Positions 57,982 through 60,569 of a stretch of DNA of 64,000 bases are shown here, piece by piece. The position numbers were made by a program, and so were the translations under genes. The stretch is from Anaerolineae bacterium (GTDB taxonomy: Bacteria > Chloroflexota > Anaerolineae > DRVO01), in NCBI GenBank assembly GCA_013178015.1, contig JABLXR010000001.1, forward strand, positions 62,001-126,000, in the 5' to 3' direction. The notes beneath the pieces are model-generated. The model saw only the letters and a program-made list of their open reading frames with translations, was not told the origin of the DNA and made no database searches. Positions within the stretch are counted from its first letter, which is position 1. Every line of letters starts with the position of its first letter.

Positions 57982-59118
57982 TCAGCCGGACAACGGAAGA
58001 GGCATCTGCATCGGGGGACGTCGGCCAGCCAGCAGCACGAAGGGAGCGCATGTCTCGGCTCGCATCCCCAAGCGCGCCAACTGGGTCAAATCGCGGATGG
58101 TAGCATGGCGGCGGGCCTCCAGCAGCCGCCGGGCGCCGGTGGGGCCGATCCCTGGCACCCGCACCAGAGCCTGCCGGCTGGCGGTGTTGACCTCCACCGG
58201 AAAGCGCTCCGGGTGCCTCAGCGCCCAGGCCAGCTTCGGGTCCATGCCACTTTCCAGATCCCCCTGGTCGTCGTACGGGATCTCATCGGCGGAGAAACCG
58301 TACTCCCGCAGCAGAGCATCCGCTTGATACAGGCGACGCTCCCGAGCTGGGGCCATGGGGGGCACATCCTGCAGAGGCGAATCGGGCACGGGCCGGAAGG
58401 GGCTGTAGTAGGCGCGGCGGAGCCCATAGCCCCGATAGAGCCCATCGGCGCAGGCCAGCAGCTCCCGATCGCTCTCCCCTGCCGACCCGGCCACGAACTG
58501 GGTGGTGGGGCCGGCAGGCGCGAACCCGGGGATGCGCGCCCTGAGTGCCCGCATCCGGTCCATCAGCCCCAGCAGCGCCCCGAAGTCCTTGTCGGGCGCG
58601 ATCCGGCCGAGGCGAGCGGGGTTGGGTGCCTCCAGATTCACCGAGATGCGGTCCGCTATGAGGCCGGCGCGCTCTACCTGGTCGTCCGTGGCGCCAGGCA
58701 TCACCTTCAGGTGCACATAGCCGGTGAACTGATAGCGGCCTCGCACGATCTCCACCGTGTCCAGTAGCCGATCCATGGTGCGCACCGAGTCGCCGCACAG
58801 GCCTGAACTGAGGAACAGGCCCTGAACCAGCCCGCTCCGCCGCATGTCGTCGAAGGATCGGGCCAGTTGGTCCGGACTCAGAGTGCACCGCCGCACGCGG
58901 GCACTGGCCCGGGTGGCGCAGTAGGCGCAGTCGTTCTGACAGGCGTTGCTGAGCAGGACCTTGAGTAGAGGCACGCGTCTCCCGCCCGCCGCGGCCCGAA
59001 AGACGGCGCCGGTCAGATCCGGCCCGGGGGAGCATGCCAGCTCAGCGGAGCTGGCCTCCACGCAGGCTGCTCCCACCAGCAGCTCCAGCTTCTCATCCAC
59101 GCCCAGAGCCCGCACCAT
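57982..59118 (-). CDS. Radical SAM / helix-hairpin-helix putative DNA modification or repair protein
   Basis: 378 residues. The radical SAM cluster motif is C60-x3-C64-x2-C67 (NACQNDCAYC). The barrel is followed by a C-terminal helix-hairpin-helix DNA-binding unit (VNTASRQALVRVPGIGPTGARR). This matches the family usually annotated as DNA modification/repair radical SAM protein and often found near a uracil-DNA-glycosylase-like gene, which is not adjacent here. The ATG at 59118 sits seven bases after a TATACT box, so the mRNA is probably leaderless. A LexA box lies in the promoter. Confidence 0.85.
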   Translation of the reverse strand: MVRALGVDEKLELLVGAACVEASSAELACSPGPDLTGAVFRAAAGGRRVPLLKVLLSNACQNDCAYCATRASARVRRCTLSPDQLARSFDDMRRSGLVQGLFLSSGLCGDSVRTMDRLLDTVEIVRGRYQFTGYVHLKVMPGATDDQVERAGLIADRISVNLEAPNPARLGRIAPDKDFGALLGLMDRMRALRARIPGFAPAGPTTQFVAGSAGESDRELLACADGLYRGYGLRRAYYSPFRPVPDSPLQDVPPMAPARERRLYQADALLREYGFSADEIPYDDQGDLESGMDPKLAWALRHPERFPVEVNTASRQALVRVPGIGPTGARRLLEARRHATIRDLTQLARLGMRAETCAPFVLLAGRRPPMQMPLPLSG

Positions 59119-59124
59119 GACCCC

Positions 59125-59153
59125 AGTATAAGAACGTATGTTCTCACCGTCAA
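59125..59153 (-). promoter_or_regulatory. Promoter of the radical SAM repair gene, leaderless
   Basis: Minus-strand TTGACG (59153-59148) and TATACT (59130-59125) with a 17-base spacer. Transcription would begin at or next to the A of the ATG at 59118, leaving no room for a ribosome binding site. Confidence 0.75.
59132..59143. promoter_or_regulatory. LexA (SOS) box, GAAC-N4-GTTC type
   Basis: gaacgtatgttc is a perfect match to the GAACN4GTTC operator bound by LexA of Gram-positive bacteria and Chloroflexota. The flanking bases extend the palindrome to agaac-gtat-gttct. It sits inside the -35/-10 spacer, so LexA would block RNA polymerase until DNA damage. Confidence 0.8.
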
Positions 59154-59165
59154 GAGGAGCACCGC

Positions 59166-59282
59166 AGGGGGAGACGCGGAGACACGGAGACACGGAGAGG
59201 GGGAGACTGGTCAGTCACTCCCGTCTCCGCGTCTCCCGGTCTCCGTGTCTCCCCCTCTCCCCGTCGCCGCGTCTCCCCTGCG
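59166..59282. repeat. Imperfect inverted repeat of GGAGACGCGGAGAC-like units, second copy
   Basis: Left half: gggggagacgcggagac and gagacacggag units. Right half: cgtctccgcgtctcc and ccgtgtctccccctctcc. The same family as 6745-6879. It lies between a radical SAM gene and a UroD-family gene. Confidence 0.7.
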
Positions 59283-60428: not shown

Positions 60429-60458
60429 CTCACCATCCCATCCATAGGGGAGATCTCA

Positions 60459-60542
60459 CCGCAGAGAGCGCAGAGAGAAGGGGAGGAGAAGAAGGGGCGA
60501 AGAGTCAATGCGTCTTCTCTGCGATCTCTGCGATCTCTGCGG
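60459..60542. repeat. Inverted repeat with CCGCAGAGA-CGCAGAGA arms
   Basis: ccgcagagagcgcagagagaag (60459-60480) faces a complementary series of gcgatctct units ending in ctctgcgg (60514-60542). It lies between the UroD-family gene and the ThuA/MocA fusion gene and is different in sequence from the GGAGACGCGG family. Confidence 0.7.
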
Positions 60543-60569
60543 TAGAATCCCCTTCCCTGCGACGATTCC

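Follow-up and report, generated by a model that had tools for sequence, protein, structure and literature searches.

The radical SAM/HhH gene and its promoter

In the window, i.e., the whole 64-kb stretch of Anaerolineae DNA that was analysed, a radical SAM/helix-hairpin-helix (HhH) gene lies behind a promoter whose spacer encloses a LexA (SOS) box of the GAACN4GTTC type (Table 1). Both half-sites of the box are perfect; it reads GAACATACGTTC, equal to gaacatacgttc, on the minus strand (59143-59132) and gaacgtatgttc on the plus strand. An earlier note on this DNA had placed such a box between TTGACG and TATACT, in a 17-base spacer, with the ATG where transcription should start. We found every one of these elements in place; they lie on the minus strand, a point the note had left unstated. 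The -10 hexamer ends 6 bases before the start codon, which puts the expected +1 at the A of the ATG.

Table 1. Features of the radical SAM/HhH gene and its promoter-operator unit
Feature	Position	Strand	Remark
-35 hexamer TTGACG	59148..59153	minus	17-base spacer to -10
Spacer	59147-59131	minus	17 bases, encloses LexA box
LexA (SOS) box GAACN4GTTC, perfect palindromic half-sites	59132..59143	strand-neutral	kept in orthologues
-10 hexamer TATACT	59125..59130	minus	position conserved among orthologues
ggggtc between -10 and ATG	59124-59119	minus	6 bases
ATG start codon	59116..59118	minus	expected +1 at 59118; same 6-base gap in genus mate L067
Radical SAM/HhH gene, 378 codons plus stop, TIGR03916-like	57982..59118	minus	profile matches
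Codons 60-67, radical SAM cysteines C60, C64 and C67 (CX3CX2C)	58918..58941	minus	position computed from start 59118
Codons 308-361, HhH domain HHH_3	58036..58197	minus	domain match

Two intergenic stretches, 59168-59262 and 60449-60552, form long imperfect inverted repeats; the former is one of a TCTCCGCGTCTCC-like family, whose matches number 12 in the window where 0.36 would be expected.

Conservation of the promoter-operator unit

Of the refuting conditions named in the earlier note, two were checked and neither held: absence of the box upstream of orthologues, and lack of a LexA of matching type in the genome. For the first, we used a class set of 41 genomes (the source and 40 relatives from 39 families), in which TIGR03916 matches were present in 32, two of them confined to the HhH stretch. 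Searches of the 400 bases preceding the domain match in the 27 full-length class genes, the source gene included, revealed a strict box in 17 and a one-mismatch box in seven, a total of 24 of 27, and no box in three (L050, L064 and L073). Two fragments lacking the 5' end (L077 and L078) were omitted, and a third (L079), which has a one-mismatch box, was examined outside the count of 27. In one of the 17 strict cases, L055, the box follows a -10-like hexamer instead of lying within the promoter spacer.

A second set comprised the best 80 of at least 581 named loci, nearly all titled Chloroflexota and mostly Anaerolineae; it is therefore biased toward close relatives, and since some of its loci apparently come from the same organisms as the class relatives, the two sets are not independent. 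Among these 80, 64 have a box, strict in 35 and with one mismatch in 29, and 16 have none. Upstream sequence was short in four loci, one of which still has a one-mismatch box, and among the 76 with sufficient upstream sequence 13 had no box; in one of the 13, L107, the box stands one gene further upstream. With a background rate of 3.2e-4 per base for one-mismatch sites, a few of the 29 would be expected by chance. These 29 include two Dehalococcoidia loci (L098 and L102) and one titled Chloroflexota (L126) with an AAACN4GTTC site between weak flanking hexamers.

A composite rule, requiring a box with at most one mismatch together with -35 and -10 hexamers spaced 15-19 bases apart, identified the unit in 53 of the 80 named upstream windows (29 of the 53 with a strict box; L098, L102 and L126 not among them), the spacer being 17 bases in 43 and 16 in 10. 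Two reversed control patterns each gave none in the 80 target windows, and elsewhere in the named loci the rule was satisfied at two places in 941,956 bases, both strands counted. Conservation upstream of orthologues is thus above background. One of these two places heads a gene pair in the Nitrospirae genome L107 (L107:259-2204), in which lexA (127.5 bits) directly precedes a radical SAM/HhH gene (348 bits) behind one SOS-type promoter. By eye, no downstream neighbour ORF recurs among the 27 class loci; since the neighbours of the gene vary, the operator appears to go with the gene itself. At L055 a convergent DNA polymerase IV gene lies beside the radical SAM gene, an isolated case.

Start of the transcript

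The start in the source genome is probably leaderless, judging by the geometry of the promoter. The gap between the -10 hexamer and the start codon is 7 bases in the family mate L066. Of the 53 composite loci, 18 have their first in-frame start at 6 bases from the -10 hexamer and three at 7 bases, so that 21 of the 53 have leaderless geometry (6-7 bases); in the other 32 this start is closer in two, spread over 8 to 54 bases in 29 and at 168 bases in one. This scatter suggests that the leader is evolutionarily loose, with the promoter-operator unit fixed.

A rival reading accepts LexA control and denies the leaderless mRNA: translation or transcription would start elsewhere, for example at in-frame GTG codons behind a short leader. 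The other distances in 32 of the 53 orthologues are in line with this, as are the GTG codons in frame with the ATG of the source gene, 3 and 18 bases past it, and the rarity of leaderless geometry in the window, where a loose TANNNT test picked out 3 of 45 genes; general leaderlessness of the organism, entertained as an explanation, was not seen in the window and was dropped. However, the ATG stands exactly 6 bases past the -10 hexamer in both genus members, the later GTG is missing from L067, inspection by eye showed nothing like a Shine-Dalgarno sequence ahead of the GTG codons of the source gene, and the exact 6-base gap is common to 18 orthologues. We regard a start elsewhere as unlikely, and leaderless initiation as likely in the family of the source organism and several other lineages, not universally. 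Leaderless genes are known from Chloroflexi at low frequency: passages of PMC3160421 give them for 4 of 12 genomes, with a mean of 4.7%.

The protein and its missing partner

The protein matches PF04055 (radical SAM) and, in its C-terminal part, PF12836 (HhH). In an alignment of 27 orthologues, its three radical SAM cysteines are invariant in all 27 and its HhH motif is conserved. The best NCBIfam match is TIGR03916, with 310.8 bits against a curated cut-off of 343.5, a threshold passed in 4 of the 41 genomes; because of this score, the protein, which has both the CX3CX2C motif and the C-terminal HhH domain, is called TIGR03916-like and not a member. No characterised member of the TIGR03916-like radical SAM/HhH family was found. 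The predicted structure (mean pLDDT 91.1, pTM 0.89) gave matches over the radical SAM core to HydE/HydG and to biotin and lipoyl synthases, the best TM-score to the query among the 50 fold matches listed being 0.48. The fold search matched only this core, so that no substrate can be read from the fold. An identity with spore photoproduct lyase (SplB) was considered and rejected, as SplB did not match the protein in NCBIfam, Pfam or PDB sequence searches or among the 50 fold matches listed.

We take the TIGR03916 family to be defined by its pairing with TIGR03915/DUF4130; to our knowledge, the pairing of the radical SAM protein with a DUF4130 or uracil-DNA glycosylase (UDG)-like protein is near-obligate. 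The NCBIfam model name, rSAM_link_UDG, points to the same link, and passages of published work (PMC8565304 among them) tie the radical SAM protein to DUF4130 and uracil-glycosylase-like proteins. We found neither TIGR03915 nor PF13566 (DUF4130) in any of the 41 genomes, the source included, with models that detected the Caulobacter and Bacteroides controls. Of 201 evenly sampled Chloroflexota genomes, 28 had TIGR03916 (E up to 1e-20) and six, all of one genus, had a weak TIGR03915 match under the cut-off, none of them among the 28. From this distribution, the radical SAM protein appears to be partnerless in Chloroflexota and to work without DUF4130; incomplete genomes could mask single partner cases, not every one. 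A conserved neighbour as replacement partner was discarded as a candidate, no downstream ORF recurring in the 27 class loci. The source genome has one UDG-family gene, located elsewhere, with no strict box nearby.

SOS control could also be real with an enzyme whose target in damaged cells is not DNA, such as RNA, nucleotides or protein. The absence of the UDG/DUF4130 partner would fit this, and so would a fold core resembling HydE, biotin synthase and lipoyl synthase, no DNA enzyme among them. On the other hand, the C-terminal HhH domain is of the ComEA type (it matches the ComEA-related chain 2duy, E 1.5e-6), and elsewhere the family is associated with UDG-like proteins. We consider a target other than DNA unlikely, and a damaged DNA base the more plausible substrate.

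LexA and the wider regulon

The genome does encode a LexA of matching type, with PF01726 and S24 peptidase domains (TIGR00498, 203.5 bits), and the promoter of its gene, TTGACA-ta-GAACGGTTGTTC-tac-TACAAT, contains the same type of box. Among 29 lexA loci examined from the 37 relatives with a LexA match, the 250 bases ahead of the match to the LexA domain contained a strict box in 27, a one-mismatch box in one and none in one. Since the source and 27 of 29 relatives carry the box at lexA, the class very probably reads GAACN4GTTC with LexA. Another repressor with the same half-sites might read the box instead of the SOS LexA, and two further LexA-like HTH matches are present in the source genome; these are weak (24.7 and 20.8 bits), whereas the gene of the sole strong LexA itself carries this box in its promoter, as do 27 of the 29 lexA loci of relatives, and we find such a repressor very improbable. 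Taking the conserved operator and the boxed lexA together, we consider it very likely that the radical SAM/HhH gene is under LexA (SOS) control.

The number of boxes is not in itself significant, being near background in both the window and the genome. One GAACN4GTTC site was observed in the window against 0.44 expected, 38 of 100 shuffled windows contained at least one, and the whole genome has 47 sites against 33 for a reversed control pattern. When the 47 were ranked by their flanking promoter hexamers, lexA came first with 11 of 12 bases and the radical SAM/HhH gene second with 10, the next site having eight. The case rests on the placement of the box and its conservation, one box per 64 kb not being rare. 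That the box is a functionless 12-base palindrome inside a promoter-like stretch, a reading that site counts alone would not exclude, is hardly conceivable given that box, hexamers and spacing are kept class-wide (53 of 80 loci against two background places), and it is this conservation that rules chance out.

Further candidate SOS genes of the source organism were assigned by motif and position alone. Strict boxes near gene starts were found at ssb (L011) and gyrA (L042), in both of which the box lies just past a -10-like hexamer, not between -35 and -10. No LexA-like box with up to two mismatches was found in about 270 bases upstream of recA (L195, contig C85), and no strict box upstream of dinB or the UDG gene; we therefore dropped the assumption of a full textbook SOS regulon. 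The predicted regulon is unusual, with ssb and gyrA boxed and recA and dinB not.

Just ahead of their start codons, two phage-integrase-like genes (L027 and L030, on contigs C18 and C20) each carry GAACATCCGTTC; mobile elements may possibly be integrated or excised under SOS control. Two other genes (L032 and L041, on contigs C22 and C39), for which Pfam gave no match, lie behind AT-rich strict boxes, GAACAAATGTTC, and may represent new SOS genes.

Proposed function

We propose that in undamaged cells LexA, bound to the box between -35 and -10, would block RNA polymerase, and that upon DNA damage LexA would be cleaved and the promoter, with its near-consensus hexamers, would fire. In the source genus the transcript would most likely begin at the A of the ATG, giving a leaderless mRNA. 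The product would be a radical SAM enzyme carrying an HhH DNA-binding domain at its C-terminal end. This enzyme would most probably use 5'-deoxyadenosyl radical chemistry to repair or modify a damaged DNA base, acting in Anaerolineae without the DUF4130/uracil-glycosylase-like partner found in other phyla. LexA control together with the domain make-up makes DNA base repair or modification the most likely role. A LexA-repressed SOS gene with a leaderless mRNA, encoding a radical SAM enzyme for DNA-base repair or modification, is the best explanation overall, and we hold it with good confidence.

The earlier note had regarded SOS control as direct evidence for a repair role. Our data support such a role for the radical SAM/HhH protein, SOS control being supporting rather than direct evidence. 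We suggest more tentatively, and with considerable doubt, that the Chloroflexota enzyme may be a self-sufficient, SOS-induced DNA-lesion enzyme, in which the catalytic core of the "rSAM plus UDG-like" repair system would act with no DUF4130/UDG partner, constituting a second radical-SAM DNA-repair family besides SplB, and that part of the lineage may be leaderless, with the start codon locked to the operator-promoter unit. Retention of the LexA operator throughout the class would mean that cells need the enzyme upon DNA damage. With the partner gene absent, Anaerolineae would be the simplest place to study the radical SAM protein alone, and the fixed promoter-operator unit may serve as a predictive SOS motif for the class.

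Comparison with known systems

In motif and palindrome, the Anaerolineae box is the same as the LexA box of the GAACN4GTTC type known from Gram-positive bacteria and reportedly also present in Dehalococcoides; the Anaerolineae box differs in being fixed, class-wide, between -35 and -10 of a radical SAM gene. With TIGR03916 (rSAM_link_UDG) the protein shares the domain order, the radical SAM cysteines and the HhH domain, but it scores under the cut-off and TIGR03915/DUF4130 is absent in 41 of 41 genomes. SplB (COG1533) is likewise a radical SAM protein; it is a DNA repair enzyme and, according to passages of PMC8565304, SOS-controlled in several species. Passages of PMC7739468 list "a radical SAM protein", which one being unspecified there, in the SOS regulons of Gram-positive bacteria and Balneolaeota. 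No published Anaerolineae SOS regulon was found by title in the open literature searched.

COG4277 is presumably the same family as the radical SAM/HhH protein. For Bacteroidetes, passages of PMC8565304 predict SOS networks that include a COG1573-COG4277 operon, and they cite reports for Verrucomicrobia and Alphaproteobacteria. The Bacteroidetes gene thus resembles the Anaerolineae gene in its predicted SOS control and, presumably, in family; however, it stands in an operon with a uracil-DNA glycosylase under other LexA motifs, whereas the Anaerolineae gene has GAACN4GTTC and no partner. For Clostridium acetobutylicum, SOS control of the family has already been proposed, at CAC3343-CAC3344 (passages of PMC3828012), so that the SOS reading of the earlier note, which our data support, has precedents there and in Bacteroidetes. 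As described in those passages, the family gene of CAC3343-CAC3344 shares its operon with another gene, whose function is unknown; the Anaerolineae gene, in contrast, is single, its box is fixed between -35 and -10, and its start is likely leaderless. While SOS control of the family has been proposed before, its occurrence in Chloroflexota, the solo gene and the fixed promoter-operator design are new.
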